A stretch of DNA of 30,139 bases from a virus. Shown piece after piece: positions 3,363 through 15,125 of this stretch (position 1 is its first letter; every line of letters begins with the position of its first letter). The DNA is taken from the IMG/VR virus record IMGVR_UViG_3300048837_001823, positions 1-30,139 of that record. One strand, 5' to 3'. The notes under the pieces were generated by a model. That model did no database searches. It had not been told where the DNA came from and was given only the letters and a program-made list of their open reading frames with translations. Made by a program: the position numbers and the translations under genes.

Positions 3363-4223
3363 ATGAAATCGCACCCATATCTGTCTATGGTCCCTGAGAT
3401 AGCGAAGAAGGAATTCGACGATCTACGAGCAGACATCAACCAGTTCGGCCAGATGTTCCCGATCATCACCTGCAACGGTATGATCGTTGATGGGCGGGCG
3501 CGCTGGCGGGCCTGCACGATGCTTGACCGCAAGCCGCAGATCGAGGAGCGTGATCTCAGCGAAATGCAGATCCTCGACTTCGTGATCTCGGCGAACGTTC
3601 ATCGACGACACCTGACCAAGAGTCAGATCGCGGTGATCGTCGGCCTGCCCTACATGCGCGAGAAGGCGAAACTCGTGGCGGCGGGGAAGCGCGAGAAGAT
3701 GCGTGCTGCCGACAATTTCAACAAGAAGTCGCCACTAGTTGCGCCTGCTACCGGCGCAACTAGTCGAGACAAAACCGCGAAAGAGACGGCCGAAATGCTT
3801 GGGGTCGGGGCTACTGCTCTGAAAGACGCCAAGACCGTAGAGAAAAAGGCTCCTGAACTCATCCCGCCGATTGCTCGAGGAGAAATGTCGGTGGAAGCCG
3901 CGGTCAAGACTCTGCGTCAGCCCAAGCCGGAGCCCCCCGCACCGGAGCCCGATGCGGCCGAGTATGTGATCGACCGCAGCCAGTCGCTCGTCACCAACAT
4001 CAAGCGCAGTCTAGAGCGCGCGGCCAAGGATCTACATACGCTGCACGAAGAATGCAAGATGCGACAGATCGTTCTGCCGGAGGAGATATTCAGTAATCTG
4101 GTGACCGCTGGAGGCGATGTCATCACGATCAATAACTACTTCCGAGAGTTCAACCGTCTTCGTGGGGTGAATTTCGTTGGTTCTCGCGAGACCATCGAAG
4201 CCGACTGGGAAGATGTCAAGTAA
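3363..4223 (+). CDS. ParB-like protein, second of a tandem pair
   Basis: ATG 3363 follows GGAGG at 3352-3356. The 286-residue protein has a ParB-like N-terminal domain: FDDLRADINQFGQMFPIITC, then IVDGRARWRAC for the DGxRR-like loop, then NVHRRHLTKSQIAVIVG leading into the helix-turn-helix. Around residues 140-170, AKETAEMLGVGATALKDAKTV is a second helix-turn-helix-like segment. A proline-rich linker (PKPEPPAPEPD) and a helical C-terminal region, probably for dimerisation, follow. The gene contains a perfect 12-bp inverted repeat at 3734-3764. It shares the HRRHLTKSQIA/HHWTKSQIA core with the gene before it but is otherwise well diverged. It could be a transcriptional regulator or a DNA-organising protein. 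Confidence 0.82.
   Translation: MKSHPYLSMVPEIAKKEFDDLRADINQFGQMFPIITCNGMIVDGRARWRACTMLDRKPQIEERDLSEMQILDFVISANVHRRHLTKSQIAVIVGLPYMREKAKLVAAGKREKMRAADNFNKKSPLVAPATGATSRDKTAKETAEMLGVGATALKDAKTVEKKAPELIPPIARGEMSVEAAVKTLRQPKPEPPAPEPDAAEYVIDRSQSLVTNIKRSLERAAKDLHTLHEECKMRQIVLPEEIFSNLVTAGGDVITINNYFREFNRLRGVNFVGSRETIEADWEDVK
3734..3764. repeat. Perfect 12-bp inverted repeat inside a ParB-like gene
   Basis: ACTAGTTGCGCC (3734-3745) and GGCGCAACTAGT (3753-3764) are exact inverted repeats around a 7-base spacer. They encode part of an Ala/Thr/Ser-rich linker between the two DNA-binding-like parts of the second ParB-like protein, a region where codon choice is relatively free. The 11-mer TCGCCACTAGT that enters the left arm (3729-3739) recurs at 4225-4235 over the next promoter. 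The element may be a binding site for a ParB-like protein or an RNA hairpin. Confidence 0.75.
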
Positions 4224-6789: not shown

Positions 6790-7142
6790 ACATCAACTGG
6801 TGCAAGAACTGGAATGGTGTCCTCAATTCCTCTTGCCGGGCAGGGGTGCCATACCTGATGCTGGGCAACGATCCGCCGAAGACGTGGCCGTGCAGTCGCA
6901 CGGGAGGGGGGAGCTGCCAGCATCGAGATATGCCGACTCAAGCAGAAGTCGACGAATGGCGAAAGACGATGGACGAGTCGTTGTCCCGTAGTCTGAAGAT
7001 CATCGCGAACATCCCCCCTGGACCGTCCGGCAAGATGGACTGCCCGAACTGCGGCAAGACGATCACCTACTCCCGGTCGCCCCGCAACGGCCACCTTCAC
7101 GCCCGATGCGAGACCCCCCGCTGTTTCGCGGTGATGCAATGA
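6786..7142 (+). CDS. Cys-rich, probable zinc-binding protein (118 aa)
   Basis: ATG 6786 overlaps the previous stop as ATGA. The C-terminal part has a zinc-ribbon-like layout, CPNCGKTITYS followed by HARCETPRC, giving a CxxC pair and a later C-x4-C pair with a nearby His. The N-terminal part has four further Cys (INWCKNW, SSCRAG, PCSRTGGGSCQHR). Such proteins usually bind nucleic acid or protein partners, but no specific role can be assigned. The next gene is also Cys-rich. Confidence 0.75.
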   Translation: MNINWCKNWNGVLNSSCRAGVPYLMLGNDPPKTWPCSRTGGGSCQHRDMPTQAEVDEWRKTMDESLSRSLKIIANIPPGPSGKMDCPNCGKTITYSRSPRNGHLHARCETPRCFAVMQ

Positions 7143-7318
7143 ACCGCGAGTGTCGGACCTGCCAGTGGCGCAAGGAGGGAATGCTGGCCGTCGATCCCTA
7201 CGAGTGCCGACGATATCCGCCGGTGCCGATCGAGGGCTACAACTTCACGAAGTCATCTTGGCCCGCCGTCAAGCCGACCGACTGGTGCGGCGAGTGGAAG
7301 AAGGAAAAGCCTGAGTGA
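7139..7318 (+). CDS. Small Cys-rich protein (59 aa)
   Basis: The start at 7139 overlaps the previous stop as ATGA. Four Cys occur in the order CRTCQWRK, YECRRYPP, DWCGEW, a spacing typical of very small metal-binding phage proteins that also carry 'YPP' and 'WP-V-DWCGE' segments. Zinc binding is inferred. Two adjacent small Cys-rich genes suggest a shared task, perhaps binding to a host protein, but this is speculation. Confidence 0.72.
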   Translation: MNRECRTCQWRKEGMLAVDPYECRRYPPVPIEGYNFTKSSWPAVKPTDWCGEWKKEKPE

Positions 7319-7557
7319 TCAACTCGTTCCTCGGGATGAAGATCGTCGTCAGCCAGCACGCTGTCCGAATCACCGTCTCCGAAGAGCGCCTGTTCCCTGC
7401 GTCGCGGCATCGCAGCGCACGGATCCACAAGAAACTCGTCAAGCGATATGGAGGTGAATTCAAAGTCAAGATCACGCCTATCACCTACGTGATGGGGAAC
7501 ACCCTGTTCACGCACCCAACCCTATACGAGGAACTCAAGCGAAATGCGAAACGATAA
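7315..7557 (+). CDS. Hypothetical protein (80 aa), GTG start
   Basis: A GTG at 7315 overlaps the previous stop as GTGA, and an AAGGAAA sequence lies upstream at 7302-7308. An in-frame ATG at 7336 lacks a clear ribosome binding site. The product is basic, with SRHRSARIHKKLVKRYGGEF in the middle and a YVMGNTLFTHPTLYEEL C-terminal segment. I recall similar short basic proteins in other phages, all without a function. The basic stretch could contact nucleic acid. Confidence 0.68.
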   Translation: MINSFLGMKIVVSQHAVRITVSEERLFPASRHRSARIHKKLVKRYGGEFKVKITPITYVMGNTLFTHPTLYEELKRNAKR

Positions 7558-7810
7558 CCTGCTCGGTTTCATGGCCTCCGACAAGGTCACCGGATTCAAG
7601 GGTCGCATCACCGCGGTCGTGGAATACCTGAGCGGCTGCACCCAGCTCCTGCTGAGCCCGCCCGTCAAGGACGATGGCACCGAGCGCGAGGGGAAGTTCT
7701 TCGACGTGCAGCGCGTGGTCATCGACTCCACCATCCCGGCCATCGTGCTGGACAACACCAAGACGCCCGGCTTCCAGCCCGGCACCGTCGGCCGGAGGGA
7801 GCACCCGTGA
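7544..7810 (+). CDS. Conserved small phage protein (88 aa)
   Basis: It has the pattern DKVTGFKGRITAVVEYLSGC followed by LLLSPPVKDDGT and FFDVQRV, which I recall from a widespread small phage protein of unknown function with 'DKVTGF-G-VT---YLTGC-Q'. The ATG at 7544 overlaps the previous gene by 14 bases; a second ATG at 7571 is possible. The likely fold is a small beta barrel. Its stop overlaps the dUTPase start as GTGA, so it may be co-expressed with nucleotide metabolism. Confidence 0.78.
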   Translation: MRNDNLLGFMASDKVTGFKGRITAVVEYLSGCTQLLLSPPVKDDGTEREGKFFDVQRVVIDSTIPAIVLDNTKTPGFQPGTVGRREHP

Positions 7811-8235
7811 TCCTCAAGGTCGCAACCCTTGAACACGCCGTCGCTCTTCCGTCATATGCGACGGAGGGCGCTGCCGGTATGGACATCGCCAGCGCAGACA
7901 CGGGCATCGTCTACTACGGGATGCATCGCATTTTCCGCACCGGCCTGATGTTCGAGGTCCCCCCTGGGCACGAGCTCCAGATCCGCAGCCGTTCGGGCAT
8001 GGCCGCGAAGCACAAGATCTTCGTGCTGAACTCGCCGGGCACGCTGGACTGCGACTACCGGGGGGAACTGATGATCGTCCTGATGAATCTGGGCGACACG
8101 AACTACGAAGTCAAGCGCGGAGATCGCATCGCGCAGGCGGTCCTCGCCCCCTTCCTGCGGGCCGAGATCGACTACGTGGAGGAACTGACGCCCACGGCGC
8201 GCGGGGCCGGAGGATTCGGCAGCACGGGGGCCTAA
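7807..8235 (+). CDS. dut: dUTPase (dUTP diphosphatase)
   Basis: It hydrolyses dUTP to dUMP and pyrophosphate, keeping uracil out of DNA and supplying dUMP to thymidylate synthase-family enzymes. All five trimeric dUTPase motifs are present in order: AGMDI at 23-27, RSRSGMA at 60-66, a motif III with D83-Y84-RGE at 75-87, RGDRIAQ at 104-110 and the glycine-rich RGAGGFGSTG at 132-141. The 142-residue length is normal. The GTG at 7807 overlaps the previous stop as GTGA. In this window it would feed dUMP to the TS-family enzyme at 10745-11650. Confidence 0.95.
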   Translation: MILKVATLEHAVALPSYATEGAAGMDIASADTGIVYYGMHRIFRTGLMFEVPPGHELQIRSRSGMAAKHKIFVLNSPGTLDCDYRGELMIVLMNLGDTNYEVKRGDRIAQAVLAPFLRAEIDYVEELTPTARGAGGFGSTGA

Positions 8236-8273: not shown

Positions 8274-8323
8274 GATTGGGTCGGGGCAGGGTGCCCCGAT
8301 CGAAACACTCCCAGGAGACTATC

Positions 8324-8986
8324 ATGGCCGACACGGTCGATATCGAAGAACTGGACGCCTCCGACCTCGCCGACATCCTCTCCGAGGTCAACGGCAAGGC
8401 CACCAAGGTCAAGAACGTCGCCGCCGCGCGCAAGGAGCTCGCCGGCCTGCTCGAGAGCAAGAGCCTCGTGCTCACCACCGACGACGAGGGCAATTTCGTC
8501 CTGAACCCCAAGAAGGCCGCGAAGACCAAGGCGAAGGCCAAGGCGCCGGAGCCCGATGAGGAAGAGGAAGCCGAAGAGGAAGCCGAGGAGGAAGCCGAGG
8601 AGGAAGCCGAGGAGGAGGTCGAGGAGGAGAAGCCCGCCCCGAAGACCAAGACCAAGGTGAAGGCCAAGGCGCCGGAGCCCGAGGAGGAGGCCGAGGAGGA
8701 AGAAGCGCCGAAGGCCAAGTCCAAGACCAAGGCGGCCCCGGCCAAGGACGGCGCGAAGCGGGCGCCGCCGCCCCGCGAGCCCACCCTGAAGGACGACATG
8801 ACCATCACCGTCGTCAACAAGACGCCCAAGTTCGCCGAGGACTCCTTCCGGGCGCGCAAGTGGGACGTCCTGAAGAAGGCCAAGACGGTCGGCGCCTACA
8901 TGAAGGCGGCCGAGGCGGCCGAGCTCCCGTCGGCGCGCGGCTTCCTGACGGTGTGCATGAAGGCCGAATACATCACCATTTCCTGA
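8324..8986 (+). CDS. Acidic repeat protein with Glu/Ala and Lys/Ala/Pro linkers (220 aa)
   Basis: The start is ATG 8324 with AGGAG at 8313-8317, directly downstream of promoter P4. An N-terminal helical part (ADTVDIEELDASDLADILSE, residues 2-21) is followed by a long low-complexity region, about residues 65-150. This region alternates Lys/Ala/Pro segments (KAKAKAPEP) with Glu/Ala blocks (EEEAEEEAEEE). A compact C-terminal domain (FRARKWDVLKKAKTVGAYMKAAEA, RGFLTVCMKAEYITIS) ends the protein. At DNA level a 12-base unit is repeated over 8561-8629 and a 24-base unit occurs twice. The long acidic tract could mimic DNA or bind basic proteins. No relative with a known function is recognised. The strong promoter and leader suggest high expression. 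Confidence 0.8.
   Translation: MADTVDIEELDASDLADILSEVNGKATKVKNVAAARKELAGLLESKSLVLTTDDEGNFVLNPKKAAKTKAKAKAPEPDEEEEAEEEAEEEAEEEAEEEVEEEKPAPKTKTKVKAKAPEPEEEAEEEEAPKAKSKTKAAPAKDGAKRAPPPREPTLKDDMTITVVNKTPKFAEDSFRARKWDVLKKAKTVGAYMKAAEAAELPSARGFLTVCMKAEYITIS
8533..8682 (+). repeat. 24-bp direct repeat and 12-bp tandem units within the acidic-repeat gene
   Basis: An identical 24-base sequence, beginning GAAGGCCAAGGC and ending GGAGCCCGA, occurs at 8533-8556 and 8659-8682, 126 bases apart. Between them, 12-base units close to GAGGAAGCCGAG are tandemly repeated (about 8561-8629). Both encode the alternating basic and acidic linker segments, so the gene likely grew by internal duplication and may vary in length between strains. 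Confidence 0.8.
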
Positions 8987-9053: not shown

Positions 9054-9932
9054 ATGATCGTCATTAAGCGCCGAGGCGACCGGATACTTCCGGAACAGTT
9101 AGATATCATGTGCCACTGGATCGAAGCACGGGAAGCTCTCCGGCACAACCGCGAATCCAACGCTCCGAAACCCTGGACCGACGACTGCCTGCTCCTGGCC
9201 TATCGCTGGTGCAACGTCCGCCGCATGGACGATCGGGTGAGCCACTGGCTCCTTCGGTGGCATCAAGCTCGGCCCGAAGTCGGGTTTCAAGACCGCATCA
9301 TCGCCGCGGTCGCGGGGCGTCTCATCAATTGGCCCCCCACGCTGCAAGAGCTTCCGTATCCTGCCCCGTATCGCGAGAAAGCGTGGACCCGCGTGATGCT
9401 GGCGCGGAAAAAGAACCGCGACAAGGTGTTCACCGGCGCCTACATCATCAACGGTGCGTTGGGGGGCGACAAAATTCTGCAGGTCACGCAGAAAGTCCTG
9501 GTGCCGCTGTGGAATGCACGAAGGACAATCGGCACTCACCCCCAGACGATGCAGGAAGTCTGGAAATGGCTCAACGGCAAGCCCGGCATCGGCTCATTCA
9601 TGGCTGGGCAGGCGGTCGCCGACCTTCGGCATATCCACCACGAGCTCCCCTGGACGGATCGCCTCACCTGGGCGCCGCAGGGGCCGGGCAGCATCCGCGG
9701 TGTCAACAGGTTGATCGGCCAGCCTCTGTCAGCAAGCCTGCCCTATAATGAGTGGCTTGACGTTGTGCGCGCGGCCTATGCCCGCTGCGCTGCTCGTCTG
9801 CCCACCATTTATGAGCGGCTGGAGCTGATGGATCAACAAAATATTCTGTGTGAGACAGATAAATACATGAGATTGACCAATGGAGAAGGTTCGGTGCGTT
9901 CACGCTATCGGGAGTTCAAAGGATGGACATAA
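9054..9932 (+). CDS. aGPT-PPlase / HMUDK-helical family protein (DNA base modification)
   Basis: The 292-residue protein matches, from memory, the helical domain family found in 5-hydroxymethyluridine DNA kinases and alpha-glutamyl/putrescinyl-thymine pyrophosphorylases of phages with hypermodified thymine. Signatures are PKPWTDD at residues 39-45 with YRWCNVRRMDDRV after it, a helix-hairpin-helix-like PGIGSFMAGQAVADLR at 177-192, GPGSIRGVNRL at 210-220, and a C-terminal QNILCETDKYMRLTNGEG-RSRY. No Walker A motif is visible, so the kinase domain is absent. It is therefore more likely a stand-alone pyrophosphorylase/transferase than a kinase. The family acts on hydroxymethyluracil already in DNA. 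The glycosyltransferase-like gene overlaps its end by 10 bases. Confidence 0.82.
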   Translation: MIVIKRRGDRILPEQLDIMCHWIEAREALRHNRESNAPKPWTDDCLLLAYRWCNVRRMDDRVSHWLLRWHQARPEVGFQDRIIAAVAGRLINWPPTLQELPYPAPYREKAWTRVMLARKKNRDKVFTGAYIINGALGGDKILQVTQKVLVPLWNARRTIGTHPQTMQEVWKWLNGKPGIGSFMAGQAVADLRHIHHELPWTDRLTWAPQGPGSIRGVNRLIGQPLSASLPYNEWLDVVRAAYARCAARLPTIYERLELMDQQNILCETDKYMRLTNGEGSVRSRYREFKGWT

Positions 9933-10720
9933 CCTTCTATATCCCCACGCTGGGGAGAATAGACAATCAACCAACGATGATCTACCTGCGCTCGGGGGGC
10001 GTAACGCCGACCCTCGTGGTGCAACCCCACGAATACGAGTTCTACCGGGTGCGCTATCCGGCCTGCTCGTTCATGCGCCTACCCAAGAGTGTCAAGGGCA
10101 TTTCGGCGACGCGTCAGTTCATCCTGGAGAACTGCGAGACTCGCCACTTAGCCATGTTCGACGACGATCTGCGGTTTGCCCGCAAAGACCCGGCCGACCG
10201 CAAGAAGCTCTTGGAGCCGAAACCGCACGACATGGAGGAGATGATCGCTGCCATCAAGTCGAAGCTCCTGCGTTTCGCCCATGTCGGCATCAGCCTTCGG
10301 CAAGGCAACAATCTCAAGACCGAGCCCTACGTCCTCAACGAGCGCATCATTCGAGCGGTGGCCTACGACAAAGAGCGCATGCCCCCCTCGGCTCGTTTCG
10401 ACCGGATCCCGCTCAAGCAGGATTTGGACATGACGCTCCAGCTTCTACGGGCCGGTCTACCGAACTGCTGCATCTACGAGTGGGCGCAGGATCAGGTCGG
10501 CGGGTCCAATGCGCGCGGGGGGTGTTCCACGTTCCGCAACGAGGACCTCTCGGACCAAGCGGCCCAGATGCTGCACGATCTACACCCAGACTTCGTCACC
10601 CTCGTCCGCAAGACGAACAACAATTGGAAGGGCTTCGGGAACAAGGATCGTCTCGAGACCCGCATCGCCTGGAAACAGGCTTACGAGGCTGGCAAGAGAG
10701 CCCGCCGCGTGCTACCCTAG
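9923..10720 (+). CDS. TAGT-like GT-A fold glycosyltransferase
   Basis: The 265-residue protein has the layout of TET-associated glycosyltransferases: a YIPTLGR nucleotide-binding start at 6-12, LVVQPHEYEFY at 31-41, KGISATRQFIL at 58-68, then LAMFDDDLRF at 76-85 with a D80-D81-D82 metal-binding motif. A later QDLDMTLQLLRAGLP segment at 166-180 may hold the catalytic acid. Known relatives were proposed to attach sugars to hydroxymethylated bases in phage DNA. No TET/JBP oxygenase is seen here. The gene overlaps the aGPT-PPlase-like gene and is followed by a TS-family gene, so a hydroxymethylated pyrimidine is a plausible acceptor. The sugar donor and acceptor are inferred. Confidence 0.75.
   Translation: MDITFYIPTLGRIDNQPTMIYLRSGGVTPTLVVQPHEYEFYRVRYPACSFMRLPKSVKGISATRQFILENCETRHLAMFDDDLRFARKDPADRKKLLEPKPHDMEEMIAAIKSKLLRFAHVGISLRQGNNLKTEPYVLNERIIRAVAYDKERMPPSARFDRIPLKQDLDMTLQLLRAGLPNCCIYEWAQDQVGGSNARGGCSTFRNEDLSDQAAQMLHDLHPDFVTLVRKTNNNWKGFGNKDRLETRIAWKQAYEAGKRARRVLP
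10690..10718 (+). promoter_or_regulatory. Extended -10 promoter P5 inside the end of the glycosyltransferase gene
   Basis: TGCTACCCT gives an extended TG with -10 TACCCT at 10713-10718; the weak -35 is TGGCAA at 10690-10695. The 21 bases at 10701-10721 match 15126-15146 at 20 positions, although here they encode the last residues and stop codon of a protein and there they are non-coding. The shared sequence is therefore most likely regulatory. AGGAGG at 10731-10736 and ATG 10745 follow. Confidence 0.6.
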
Positions 10721-10744
10721 GGGCGGCTTCAGGAGGGCCACATC

Positions 10745-11650
10745 ATGCATGTCCAATACGAGAATGTCAACCACGCAATCGCGATCCTGCCTCAGCACAT
10801 CAAGCAGCAGGGCCAGATCGAAGACAGCCGCAACGGGAAGGTCGTGTCCTACCCGCTGCCGCTGATGGTCACGACGACGCAGCCGTGGGAGCGCGTCCTG
10901 CTCTGCCCGCGCCGCCGCGCCAACCCGTTCCTATTTCTGCTTGACGGGCTGAGCATCCTTTCCAAGGTCGCGCTCGTCAAGCCGTTCGCGGACATCGTGC
11001 CGCGGTTCAAGAACTACAGCGACGACGGCGCCACGCTCCGCGGTCACTACGGCAGGCGCCTCTACGACCAGATTCCGGACGCGATCGAGATGCTGCGCCG
11101 GGAGCCGAACAGCCGCCGGGTGACGATGGCCATCTGGGACGCGGCAATGGATCTGGGGGCGGACAGCAAGGATATCCCCTGCAACGTTCACGTCAACCTG
11201 AGGATCGTCGACGGCGCGCTGGATCTCACGGTGTTCAACCGCAGCAACGACGTCCTGTGGGGAATGCTCGGCGCGAACATCGTCCAGTTCTCGTTCCTCC
11301 AGGAATACATCGCCACATCGCTCGGCCTGTTCGTCGGCCGCCTGCACCAGATCAGCACGAACGCCCACATCTACCTGGGCTTCGGCCCAGGCCAGGGAAT
11401 GCTGGACTTCACCCACACAGTGAAGACGGCGCCGACGATGCCGCTGGACATCGCCGACCTGACGAACGATCTGGACATGATGTTCCTGGCGCTGGCGGCC
11501 GATGATCCGCTGCCCCCCACGCAGAACAGGTTCCTGGCCGGGGTGGTCTATCCGATGATCCAGGCCCACCAGAACAAGGACTTGGGGATGCTGGACGGCT
11601 ACCCGGACTGCGACTGGTTCCAGGCCGCTCGCATGTATGGAGTGAAGTGA
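10745..11650 (+). CDS. Thymidylate synthase-family enzyme, candidate dUMP hydroxymethylase
   Basis: The 301-residue protein is in the thymidylate synthase/pyrimidine hydroxymethylase family. It has SRNGKV at 28-33, FKNYSDDGATLRGHYGRRL at 88-106, SRRV at 123-126, the catalytic cysteine in DIPCNVHV (C146), NRSNDVLWGMLGAN at 165-178 and the dUMP-binding HQISTNAHIY at 201-210. N178 aligns with the asparagine that selects uracil over cytosine, so the substrate should be dUMP. Y91 appears to replace the tryptophan (W80 in E. coli ThyA) whose substitution favours hydroxymethylation. With the neighbouring modification genes this points to 5-hydroxymethyl-dUMP synthesis, but ordinary dTMP synthesis is not excluded. 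The start has AGGAGG at 10731-10736. Confidence 0.88.
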   Translation: MHVQYENVNHAIAILPQHIKQQGQIEDSRNGKVVSYPLPLMVTTTQPWERVLLCPRRRANPFLFLLDGLSILSKVALVKPFADIVPRFKNYSDDGATLRGHYGRRLYDQIPDAIEMLRREPNSRRVTMAIWDAAMDLGADSKDIPCNVHVNLRIVDGALDLTVFNRSNDVLWGMLGANIVQFSFLQEYIATSLGLFVGRLHQISTNAHIYLGFGPGQGMLDFTHTVKTAPTMPLDIADLTNDLDMMFLALAADDPLPPTQNRFLAGVVYPMIQAHQNKDLGMLDGYPDCDWFQAARMYGVK

Positions 11651-11651
11651 C

Positions 11652-12143
11652 ATGGCCGCGACTCTTCAAGCGCTCATCAAGGCGGGCTACGACGTGACCC
11701 GCTGGCATACGCTGCCGAACTCGCGTCCGCAGAACCTCGCGTCCCATCTGTGGGGGGTGGCCATGCTGATCAACCGGCTCTACGACGGGCCGATTCACCT
11801 GCTGCCCTTGCTGATGAGTGCGGCGCTGGAACACGATCTCGCCGAATCGCAGATCGGCGACATGCCCCGGCCCGCTCGCACCAGAGAGCATCGCGTTCTG
11901 GAGCTCGCCGTGTGCAACAACATGAAGATCGCTCATGAGGATCACCTGCCGGCGATCATCCGGCCGTGGCTGGAATGGGCGGATCTGATCGAAGCCGGGC
12001 TGCACGCCCAGCGCGAGGTGATGGTCGGCAACTCGAACTTCACGGAAGTCCTGCTGCGCGTCAGCGACTACATCAACGAGAGCGAGGCGCATATCCCCCC
12101 TCCGCTGTTCAAGTTCGCCCGGGAAGCGGGGTTGGTGCTGTGA
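11652..12143 (+). CDS. HD-domain phosphohydrolase, YfbR-like 5'-deoxynucleotidase
   Basis: YfbR-type enzymes remove the phosphate from deoxyribonucleoside monophosphates. The 163-residue protein shows the family's residues: R17-W18, H32 in SHLWGVAMLI, H61-D62-xx-E65 in the EHDLAE motif, G69-D70 followed by MPRPAR, and an aspartate in VSDYIN near residue 138. The gene starts one base after the TS-family stop, so the two are coupled. In phages with modified bases, HD phosphohydrolases are known to deplete the normal nucleotide, so removal of dTMP or another dNMP would suit this cluster. The specificity cannot be read from sequence. Confidence 0.85.
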   Translation: MAATLQALIKAGYDVTRWHTLPNSRPQNLASHLWGVAMLINRLYDGPIHLLPLLMSAALEHDLAESQIGDMPRPARTREHRVLELAVCNNMKIAHEDHLPAIIRPWLEWADLIEAGLHAQREVMVGNSNFTEVLLRVSDYINESEAHIPPPLFKFAREAGLVL

Positions 12144-12811
12144 AGAAGCCCGGCCAGCCCGCCAGCCCGCTCGAGATCACGGCGGGCCGCAAGACCCTCT
12201 TGGGCGCTTTCCGGTTCGGCATCGCTGACCGGGAGCAGATGGCCATGGCCGCGAACTGGCTTCGCGACCTGACCGTGTTTCACGGTGAATCCCTCAAGCG
12301 CCTTGAGGGAAACCCGGTGTATCTTCAGTTGATGAGGGGAACCCTCACGGGGTCGGCAACCCAGAACCACGCTGCCGACTGGATCGAAGGTCTTGTGCAA
12401 TCAGGAGAGATACAGCCTATGGTCGAACAGCCGACCGCCAACGAGCGTCAGGTGGGGGGTGCCCACTACCGGAAGAAGATCCAGCATTGGGACTTCGTGG
12501 CTTCCCACGACTACGGCTACTTGGAGGGGCAGGTCACGAAATACGTGTTCCGCTGGAAGGACAAGAACGGTCTGCAAGACGTGCAGAAGGCTGAGCACTT
12601 TCTGCAGAAGCTCATCGAAGTCGCTGAAATGGACAGCATGCCGATTCCCCTCGGCCAGTTTCTCGACGACAACGACATCCAGGGCGAGGAGCGCGAGATC
12701 TACATCGCCATGCACGCCTATCACGGCACGCTGGACCCCATGTTTCTGGAGGTCGCCCAGCGAGCGATGAAGCGGCTGCTGGCCAGCGCGGCGGCGCTGC
12801 CTCCGGCGTAG
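12140..12811 (+). CDS. DUF3310 protein with N-terminal extension (223 aa)
   Basis: The C-terminal half carries DUF3310 (SaV-like): NERQVGGAHYRKKIQHWDF near residue 100, then HDYGYLEGQVTKYVFRWKDKNG and DVQKAEHFLQKLIE. This is a small phage domain linked to nucleotide metabolism neighbourhoods, with no proven reaction. The GTG at 12140 overlaps the HD gene stop as GTGA and gives an extra 93-residue helical part (MAMAANWLRDLTVF) of unknown origin. An in-frame ATG at 12419 with AGGAGA at 12403-12408 would give the DUF3310 domain alone, so two products are possible. Confidence 0.82.
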   Translation: MKKPGQPASPLEITAGRKTLLGAFRFGIADREQMAMAANWLRDLTVFHGESLKRLEGNPVYLQLMRGTLTGSATQNHAADWIEGLVQSGEIQPMVEQPTANERQVGGAHYRKKIQHWDFVASHDYGYLEGQVTKYVFRWKDKNGLQDVQKAEHFLQKLIEVAEMDSMPIPLGQFLDDNDIQGEEREIYIAMHAYHGTLDPMFLEVAQRAMKRLLASAAALPPA

Positions 12812-12897: not shown

Positions 12898-13233
12898 ATG
12901 TCGAACGCAGGCAAAAAGATGGTCAACTGGAAGCGAGACCACGCTGTCCTGCGAGTAGCCCTCGGGCTGCTCAGGCGGGACGGCTTCACGTCGCTTCACG
13001 CGGCGCGCTTCCTCATGTCGCACGAGGCGACCGCGGCCGTGAGAGAAGACTGCCTGCGGCTGGGCCGCGAGCTCACCGATGAGGCGCTGGCCAGCCGTAT
13101 GAAGCGAATCGAGGAGCTCGACTGGCTCGAGACCAACCGCCCTGCGATGTTCAAGGCTGGCAAGGCCCTGAGCCGCGTGTTGAAGCGCGATCTCCGCGCT
13201 GCTCACATCGAATCCTTCTCGGCGCTCGGCTGA
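12898..13233 (+). CDS. Hypothetical protein (111 aa), upstream of polymerase
   Basis: Not recognised. ATG 12898 has only a weak AAGG at 12884-12887. The protein is basic and mostly helical: GKKMVNWKRDHAVLRVALGLLRRDG, HAARFLMSHEATAAVRED and KALSRVLKRDLRAAHIE. Its last base overlaps the polymerase start (TGATG), so the two are translated together and it may assist replication. No helix-turn-helix signature is clear. Confidence 0.7.
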   Translation: MSNAGKKMVNWKRDHAVLRVALGLLRRDGFTSLHAARFLMSHEATAAVREDCLRLGRELTDEALASRMKRIEELDWLETNRPAMFKAGKALSRVLKRDLRAAHIESFSALG

Positions 13234-15125
13234 TGTTTCCGGAGATTACGATCGTGGATTGGCAACCCCCCGGCCCAGAGCTTCCTGAGATTCCGGCAGG
13301 CTCCCTCGTCGCGCTTGACTTGGAAACCCACGACCCGATGCTCAAGAGGCTCGGTCCGGGATGGGCTTTCAACGAGGGCTTCATCTGCGGCGTGGCCCTG
13401 GCGTGGGGCCTCGAGACGCTCGACGAAGTCCGCTACTACCCTCTTCGTCACGCAGGGGGGAATTGGACAGGGGACATCGGAAAGTTCATGCGATGGCTGC
13501 GCGCCCAGCTCCGTCGCGGCGATCTCGAGTGGTGCTTCGCGAACTCGTCCTACGACCTGGGCTGGCTCAACGTGGTGCCGGAAGGACGGATCCACGACGT
13601 CCAAGTCAGCGCCCCCCTGCTCAACGAGCATCGTTGGTCCTACAGCCTGGACAATCTGGCCAAGGACGAGCTCGGCGAAGGCAAGGACGAATCGCTGCTC
13701 AAGGAATGGGCGAGGCGTGCGGGCATCAAAGACAACCCGAAGGGGATGATGGCCGAAATGCCGTCGTTCGCTGTCGGGCCGTATGCTGAGCAGGACGCAT
13801 CGGCGACGTGGCGCCTACACAAGATTTTCATGCCTCGCATCCGCGAGCAGGACCTCGGCAAGATCTACCGGCTCGAGATGGACCTCGTTCCAATGCTGAT
13901 GGAAATGCGAAGGGCGGGGGTCAAGGTGAATGTCTCCCGCGCGCAACGGCTCCGGGAAGAGCTCCTGGTCGAGGAGAACGACCAGTCTCGAGCGCTCAAA
14001 CATCTCACAGGCATCCGCATGACCGCCTGGGATATTCAGTCCCAGATCCGGGTGCTGAAGAACGAGGGTGTCAAGGGATTCCCTGTCACACCCAAGTTGA
14101 AAAAGGAGGGCCTCACGGGGCCGTTCCTCGATCAACTCAGTAAGCACCAGAACAAGGCCGGTGAAGTCGCTCGCGCCATCCTCAACCTGCGCCGGAAGAA
14201 CCGCCAGCGGGTGACCTTCGTTGACCGGCTGGTGCTGGAGCATCACTACAACGGGCGCATTCACGCTCAATTCAATCAGCTCAAGTCCGACGACGGCGGC
14301 ACCGTGTCTGGCCGATTCTCCAGCCAAGACCCGAACCTCCAACAATTACCTGCGAGAGATGAGGAAGTGGCCAGCCTGATTCGCGGCTTGGTGGAGGCGG
14401 ACGATGGAGAACTCCTGGCCAGCGCGGACTATGCGTCGCAGGAACCTCGCCTCGCTGTCCATTGGGCCGTGGAAGGAGGCAGCCGTTTGGCCCAGAAGAT
14501 GGCCCAGAAGTTCCACGAGAACCCGCGCCTGGATCTACATCAGCAGGTCGCCGACATCATGACCATCAAACGGTCCAGCGCCAAGATCCTCAATCTGGCG
14601 CAGATGTATGGTCAAGGGGGTGGAAGTCTCTGTATCGCCCTGGGCCTGGACGCCTTCCCGGACAGTTTCGTGAACGACGCCGGTCAGGAGATCCACTATC
14701 TGGCGCCGGGCCGCGAAGGTCGCCGACTCCTCGACGAATACAACAAGGTGATGCCTTTCATGAAGGCGACAGCCAAGGCTGCTGAGCGCGATGCCCGCCG
14801 CGACGGATACATCACGACGCTCCTGGGTCGGCGTTGTCGAGTATTCCACTACCCCAATGGCGGCGATGACGCCCGCAAGATGTTCAACCGGCGCATTCAG
14901 GGCAGCGCGGCCGACATGACCAAGAAGTCGATGCTAGACGCGTGGCGGGCCGGATACAAGGTCAGGCTGACAGTCCACGACGAGAACGTATTCAGCGTCG
15001 AGAACGAAAAGCAGGCGCGCGAGTGCGTCGAGATCATGAACGACGCCGTCCAGCTCCACGTTCCGGTTGTGAGCGATCTGGCGATCGGACGGACCTGGGG
15101 GGACATGCGAGAACTGGTCACATAA
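13233..15125 (+). CDS. Family A DNA polymerase with 3'-5' exonuclease domain
   Basis: This is the replicative DNA polymerase. The N-terminal exonuclease has Exo I LDLETHD (D29, E31), Exo II NSSYDLGWL, and Exo III YAEQDASATWRL. The polymerase core has motif A SADYASQEPRL (D399), motif B with R447, K451 and Y459-G460 in RSSAKILNLAQMYGQG, and motif C VHDENV (H582-D583-E584). It is 630 residues and lacks the 5'-nuclease domain, as is usual in phages. The residue equivalent to E. coli Pol I F762 is L455, a substitution associated in family A surveys with slower, more accurate enzymes. The ligase and SNF2 helicase lie in the same unit. Confidence 0.95.
   Translation: MFPEITIVDWQPPGPELPEIPAGSLVALDLETHDPMLKRLGPGWAFNEGFICGVALAWGLETLDEVRYYPLRHAGGNWTGDIGKFMRWLRAQLRRGDLEWCFANSSYDLGWLNVVPEGRIHDVQVSAPLLNEHRWSYSLDNLAKDELGEGKDESLLKEWARRAGIKDNPKGMMAEMPSFAVGPYAEQDASATWRLHKIFMPRIREQDLGKIYRLEMDLVPMLMEMRRAGVKVNVSRAQRLREELLVEENDQSRALKHLTGIRMTAWDIQSQIRVLKNEGVKGFPVTPKLKKEGLTGPFLDQLSKHQNKAGEVARAILNLRRKNRQRVTFVDRLVLEHHYNGRIHAQFNQLKSDDGGTVSGRFSSQDPNLQQLPARDEEVASLIRGLVEADDGELLASADYASQEPRLAVHWAVEGGSRLAQKMAQKFHENPRLDLHQQVADIMTIKRSSAKILNLAQMYGQGGGSLCIALGLDAFPDSFVNDAGQEIHYLAPGREGRRLLDEYNKVMPFMKATAKAAERDARRDGYITTLLGRRCRVFHYPNGGDDARKMFNRRIQGSAADMTKKSMLDAWRAGYKVRLTVHDENVFSVENEKQARECVEIMNDAVQLHVPVVSDLAIGRTWGDMRELVT

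Follow-up and report, generated by a model that had tools for sequence, protein, structure and literature searches.

Phages M6 and PaMx11 carry hypermodified thymine, the 5-hydroxymethyluracil (5-hmU) of SPO1 is left bare, and the 5-hydroxymethylcytosine (hmC) of T4 and T6 is glycosylated; base J of kinetoplastids, the group of the trypanosomes, is a sugar on 5-hmU in DNA. The relevant genes of M6 lie in the order kinase, HMUDK_hel, Nmad5, thymidylate synthase (TS), HD phosphohydrolase, DUF3310 and family-A DNA polymerase (PolA), and PaMx11 is similar. Here we analysed the whole of IMG/VR record IMGVR_UViG_3300048837_001823, a 30,139-base linear fragment of a tailed-phage genome (hereafter the window), in which the order is HMUDK_hel, TAGT, TS, HD, DUF3310 and PolA. 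The first four of these genes, adjoining open reading frames at 9054-12143 that are all present and intact, almost certainly form a DNA-modification cassette, with which the phage probably replaces some of its thymine by 5-hmU and then attaches a sugar. We put at roughly 0.6 the probability that TAGT, partnered by HMUDK_hel, adds the sugar to 5-hmU in DNA.

Profile searches upheld all four family assignments that an earlier note on this DNA had proposed from the letters alone. The first product (9054-9932; plus strand, like every other window gene assigned a function below) matches PF18723 over the full length of the profile (positions 4-276 of 281; 124 bits against a cut-off of 25; E = 1e-35). 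PF18723 was formerly named aGPT-PPlase1, a name that the SN1 paper keeps for the same gene (PMC9476957), and its present Pfam name denotes the helical domain of the 5-hydroxymethyl-deoxyuridine (5-hmdU) DNA kinase. In M6, gp55 belongs to PF18723, gp51 to PF18724 (amino-acid:DNA transferase, ADDT) and gp54 to PF18748 (P-loop kinase). Since these three families are distinct, the 9054 gene encodes the kinase-associated helical protein and not an amino-acid transferase; the original label, aGPT-PPlase-like, was right about the family and misleading as a name. TAGT (9923-10720), a GT-A family glycosyltransferase proposed to act on 5-hmU in DNA, matches PF20691 at 64.6 bits (cut-off 27.5; E = 1.6e-17) and phrog_842 at 1.2e-48, and its acidic GT-A motif DDD (D80-D82) is invariant in six TAGTs. 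The third gene (10745-11650) encodes a TS-family enzyme, the proposed dUMP 5-hydroxymethylase (PF00303, 9.6e-17; phrog_5131, 2e-68). The fourth (11652-12143) encodes a YfbR-like HD phosphohydrolase, syntenic with M6 gp59 and probably trimming the dNMP/dNTP pool as a deoxynucleotidase (PF12917, 1e-9; phrog_6047 and phrog_7076); it also shows a weak match to a dATP triphosphohydrolase PHROG.

The mostly touching gene ends described earlier are real. The HMUDK_hel and TAGT reading frames share a 10-nucleotide (nt) overlap, the TS-family gene starts 24 nt past the TAGT stop with its own GGAGG, and the HD gene begins 1 nt after the TS-family gene. The same gene order is found in loci L002, L003 and L007, and the ratio of non-synonymous to synonymous substitution (dN/dS) between the window and L002 is 0.11 for HMUDK_hel, 0.15 for TAGT, 0.35 for TS and 0.36 for HD. 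These ratios indicate that all four genes are maintained, with purifying selection on HMUDK_hel and TAGT, and, together with the repeated order, argue that the block did not arise by chance. A megablast search of the region against phages gave no match.

To see which genes accompany HMUDK_hel and TAGT, loci of each were gathered separately from viral contigs, and their neighbours were classed with hidden Markov models (HMMs) built from seeds. Among 80 HMUDK_hel clusters, 32 have, within 1.5 kb, a TAGT without a kinase, 30 a kinase without a TAGT, four a GT-B glycosyltransferase and one both, leaving 13 with no recognised partner. The partner of HMUDK_hel alternates almost exclusively between a kinase (30 clusters) and a glycosyltransferase (36, including the four GT-B). 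When loci were retrieved by TAGT alone, 71 of 80 contained HMUDK_hel and one a kinase, and at the level of 80%-identity clusters HMUDK_hel lay nearby in 27 of 31 and TS in nearly all; because the TAGT query was drawn from the window's own clade, which biases the counts, these figures describe that TAGT branch and not the T6-like TAGTs. The mix of a thymine-type and a cytosine-type transferase, which had looked unusual at first reading, is therefore not so, as dozens of phage clusters have the pairing and a 2022 paper described it in part for pelagiphages (PMC9599517).

In four close relatives of the window (L004, L005, L006 and L019) a protein of about 420 residues replaces TAGT between HMUDK_hel and TS. 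It gave weak Pfam GT4 matches, and Foldseek on its low-confidence AlphaFold2 (AF2) model (pLDDT 49) returned almost exclusively GT-B glycosyltransferases, including PimA, MshA and T4 alpha-glucosyltransferase; because the model is poor, the GT-B assignment rests on the consistency of these matches together with those to GT4. A search with this protein returned seven loci, six of them in contigs that also carry HMUDK_hel. GT-A glycosyltransferases are in general diverse in their acceptors, and TAGT could in principle act on a surface glycan or a protein and owe its location to chance. Given how regularly HMUDK_hel and TS accompany it, and that an unrelated GT-B enzyme fills the same slot in the four relatives, we regard such a non-DNA acceptor as very improbable. 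The slot between HMUDK_hel and TS can also hold other genes, for an FkbM-type methyltransferase in L032 (9013-9774; 1.4e-10) and for a Mom-family protein in L043 (10223-10987; 1.2e-17), both possible further partners of HMUDK_hel. In L009, a 178 kb phage contig, a GalE-like epimerase gene (7000-7992) immediately precedes HMUDK_hel and four TAGT-like genes lie upstream, which fits sugar supply.

A maximum-likelihood tree of 92 HMUDK_hel proteins requires at least nine partner changes with three states and at least seven between kinase and glycosyltransferase, the unverified kinase labels of phiW-14 and SH-Ab 15599 having been removed before these counts; well-supported branches alone force at least five to six changes with kinase and TAGT labels. 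The window's protein belongs to a group with 99% support, in which two members are paired with TAGT and four with GT-B. Between the two partner classes, the 25 HMUDK_hel positions that hardly vary in either are identical, about 14 polar residues are invariant whichever the partner, and no position distinguishing the classes passed our filter. HMUDK_hel therefore appears to have one and the same function beside kinase and glycosyltransferase alike. No fusion of HMUDK_hel to a kinase or a TAGT was seen in the collected loci.

The earlier observation that the window has no kinase was confirmed and extends to relatives. Neither PF18748 nor a kinase HMM trained here, which detects the kinases of M6 (the positive control), L011 and L099, found a P-loop 5-hmdU DNA kinase in the window, in the 44 kb L003 contig or in the complete genome of Brevibacterium phage LuckyBarnes. 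A PF18748 scan of 50 records gave no match, yet it also missed the L099 kinase that the trained HMM detects, and so was not used alone. Nor did the window, the L003 contig or LuckyBarnes yield an ADDT, and among the TAGT/HMUDK_hel records searched only that of L099 has one; kinase, ADDT, pyridoxal-phosphate (PLP) and radical-SAM genes were not found in the sequenced part of the window's genome. Both partners occur together in L099 alone, which combines a complete M6-like cassette (ADDT, PLP, radical SAM, kinase and HMUDK_hel) with a TAGT. That union, and the fact that the window is a fragment, would be compatible with an M6-like, amino-acid-type hypermodification of thymine whose kinase and transferase genes lie outside this fragment, TAGT being an extra. 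The near mutual exclusion of kinase and TAGT, the finding of ADDT in L099 only among the TAGT/HMUDK_hel records searched and the lack of a detectable kinase in L003 and LuckyBarnes make this improbable.

The AF2 model of HMUDK_hel is confident (pLDDT 87.4, pTM 0.84). Its top fold matches are 8z2n and 8z2m (Z 11.4 and 10.0, a moderate similarity of a size that all-helical proteins may reach by chance), both PUGT, the 5-phosphomethyl-deoxyuridine (5-PmdU) DNA glycinyltransferase of PaMx11. Helix-hairpin-helix (HhH) DNA glycosylases follow at Z 6 to 9.4 (AGOG 9.4, Mag1 8.9). Compared by eye, the HhH stretch PGIGSF presumably places an invariant Phe at the site of the catalytic Lys of endonuclease III, and D202 seems to lie near the spacing of the catalytic Asp in HhH glycosylases. 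From what is known of the HhH glycosylase superfamily, HMUDK_hel may bind DNA with base flipping, and we propose it as the partner that recognises 5-hmU in DNA. A phmmer search of HMUDK_hel against PDB sequences returned noise only, as did profile searches with HMUDK_hel, TAGT and the GT-B protein.

With a glycinyltransferase as its closest fold (Z 11.4) and polar residues that are kept with either partner, HMUDK_hel might instead be catalytic itself, transferring a group to 5-hmU or to its neighbour's product, so that the final base would carry a sugar and something else, or the sugar would serve as an activating leaving group. A specific base-recognition pocket would also conserve residues, however, and Pfam ties the family to the kinase, the amino-acid transferase being a separate family that stands beside HMUDK_hel in M6; we consider a catalytic role unlikely. 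HMUDK_hel is present in ViI, phiW-14, M6, PaMx11, Pam3 and others, and was not found in SPO1, T4 or T6, of which T6 nonetheless has a TAGT. This distribution fits a role in decorating 5-hmU. The only HMUDK_hel locus found in bacterial genomes is in Ramlibacter albus (L199, 6001-6867), where no cassette HMM matched the neighbours.

Which base is modified was judged mainly from the TS-family enzyme. All 139 TS proteins of the loci keep C146, R166, S167, D169, N177 (E. coli numbering), H207 and Y209. The Asn at N177 is common to the window's TS, SPO1 gp29 and M6 gp58, whereas MilA has Asp there; SPO1 gp29 is a dUMP hydroxymethylase and MilA a CMP hydroxymethylase. None of the 139 proteins has the dCMP-type Asp. 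At the position of E. coli L143 the window's TS has an Asp, as do SPO1 gp29, M6 gp58 and T4 gp42, which hints at hydroxymethylation without proving it. No C5-cytosine methylase was found in the 11 records searched, and a search of 11 records for a TET/JBP oxygenase (PF12851), which had no positive control, gave no match. Since the TS residues are of the dUMP type and no C5-cytosine methylase was found, the base is most likely 5-hmU, and we are confident that it is a uracil of some kind. The cytosine-type label once attached to the transferase came only from the name TAGT, and the window's TS is of the dUMP type; the proposal of a hydroxymethyl-dUMP synthase feeding base glycosylation is supported as a prediction.

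A cytosine route as in T6 would have the TS-family enzyme make 5-hydroxymethyl-dCMP and TAGT decorate hmC or glucosyl-hmC in DNA. The closest PDB sequence to the window's TS is indeed MilA, and the T6 TAGT puts a second glucose on glucosyl-hmC (PMC13216743). Against this stand the Asn in all 139 TS proteins, the lack of HMUDK_hel in T4 and T6, the C5-methylase and TET searches with the limit just given, and a synteny that is shared with thymine-modifying phages, so that we think the cytosine route improbable as well.

Glycosylation of 5-hmU by TAGT with HMUDK_hel can be set in a pathway with the flanking genes, of which the dUTPase upstream and the polymerase downstream were borne out by profile search. 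The dUTPase (7807-8235; PF00692, 4e-26; NF001862, 3.6e-47, above cut-off) would turn dUTP into the precursor dUMP, and the TS-family enzyme would convert dUMP to 5-hydroxymethyl-dUMP while the HD enzyme would remove nucleotides that compete. Phosphorylation of 5-hmdUMP to the triphosphate would then fall to a kinase of the host or the phage. The phage candidate is the DUF3310 protein (12140-12811; PF11753, 3e-6), whose gene begins with a GTG that overlaps the stop of the HD gene. The T7 gp1.7 nucleotide kinase ends in a DUF3310 domain (PF11753, 4.5e-23), which weakly suggests, with a pairwise E of 0.005, that the gene could help to make hmdUTP. PolA (13233-15125; PF00476, 1.4e-41; 35% identity to the M6 polymerase) would incorporate 5-hmdUTP into DNA; its score with the DpoZ (aminoadenine) model is 305 bits, under the cut-off of 500. 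After replication, HMUDK_hel, with a fold like that of HhH glycosylases and no glycosylase function, would recognise 5-hmU and probably flip it out, and TAGT would glycosylate the hydroxymethyl group with a nucleotide sugar as donor. In phages of the M6 type this recognition protein would serve the P-loop kinase, and in the four close relatives it adjoins the GT-B glycosyltransferase. The analysis itself shows the families, the synteny, the alternation of partners, the conserved residues and the predicted fold; the DNA substrate, the base flipping, a physical pairing and the identity of the sugar are inferences.

Several points weigh against this pathway. Besides the moderate fold match and the biased TAGT query, 13 of the HMUDK_hel clusters lack a recognised partner in their neighbourhood, and L099 holds both kinase and TAGT. 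HMUDK_hel may not be essential, as ctUhy936 and a few other TAGT loci are without it; the TS-family enzyme may be an ordinary dTMP synthase, its residues being no proof of hydroxymethylation; and we found no biochemistry on these proteins in the accessible literature. A bolder reading, to which we give somewhat less than an even chance, is that HMUDK_hel is not part of the kinase at all; it would be a general platform presenting 5-hmU in DNA to interchangeable modifiers (P-loop kinase, GT-A TAGT, GT-B enzyme, perhaps the FkbM methyltransferase or Mom), and the glycosyltransferase version would be a phage counterpart of base J reached via the nucleotide pool.

Elsewhere in the window, the gene at 8276-8986, between dUTPase and HMUDK_hel, has conserved ends and a long Glu/Ala/Lys-rich low-complexity middle; it also occurs in L002 and L003, and no family was found for it. 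The gene at 1294-2076 is a homologue of gp34 (PF23977, 2e-47) of phage Pam3, which also has an M6-like thymine cassette, and that at 3363-4223 has a weak ParB-like nuclease match.

A 2026 study found many TAGTs without an alpha- or beta-glucosyltransferase, termed potential novel transferases, and solitary TAGTs whose substrate is not known are present in 288 of its 753 glycosyltransferase-carrying phage genomes (PMC13216743). The association described here predicts 5-hmU DNA as the substrate of those that resemble the window's clade, with LuckyBarnes as a cultured phage in which to test it, and the platform reading, if true, would also explain many of them. We found no report of the exclusivity of kinase and glycosyltransferase, of the GT-B replacement or of HMUDK_hel as a shared component, in a search that did not reach key literature on thymidine hypermodification. 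The partner swap appears to be new, and the cassette itself had been noted in pelagiphages in 2022. These findings cast doubt on whether PF18723 belongs to the kinase, and they suggest a modular thymine hypermodification in which transferases can be exchanged around a single protein on the DNA side.

Compared with M6, the window has HMUDK_hel, TS, HD, DUF3310 and PolA in the same order and the same dUMP-type TS residues. It differs from M6 and PaMx11 in that no kinase, ADDT, PLP or radical-SAM gene was found and TAGT occupies the Nmad5 slot of M6. The HTVC023P-type pelagiphages, in which an HMUDK_hel/TAGT cassette was partly noted, are a different phage group; in the accessible portion of that report (PMC9599517), partner exclusivity, GT-B substitution, residue tests and fold are not described. 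LuckyBarnes shares adjoining TS, TAGT, TAGT and HMUDK_hel genes and the lack of a detectable kinase, but its order is reversed, it has two TAGTs and its HMUDK_hel is divergent. The T6 TAGT and the T4 glucosyltransferases offer the TAGT family and post-replicative glycosylation of a hydroxymethylpyrimidine in DNA, although on cytosine and in phages where HMUDK_hel was not found. The predicted product is of the same kind as base J, a sugar on 5-hmU in DNA; for base J, a TET/JBP enzyme hydroxylates T within DNA and an unrelated glucosyltransferase follows, whereas here hmU would enter via the nucleotide pool. If our reading is true, phages with this cassette make a sugared thymine similar to base J of trypanosomes.

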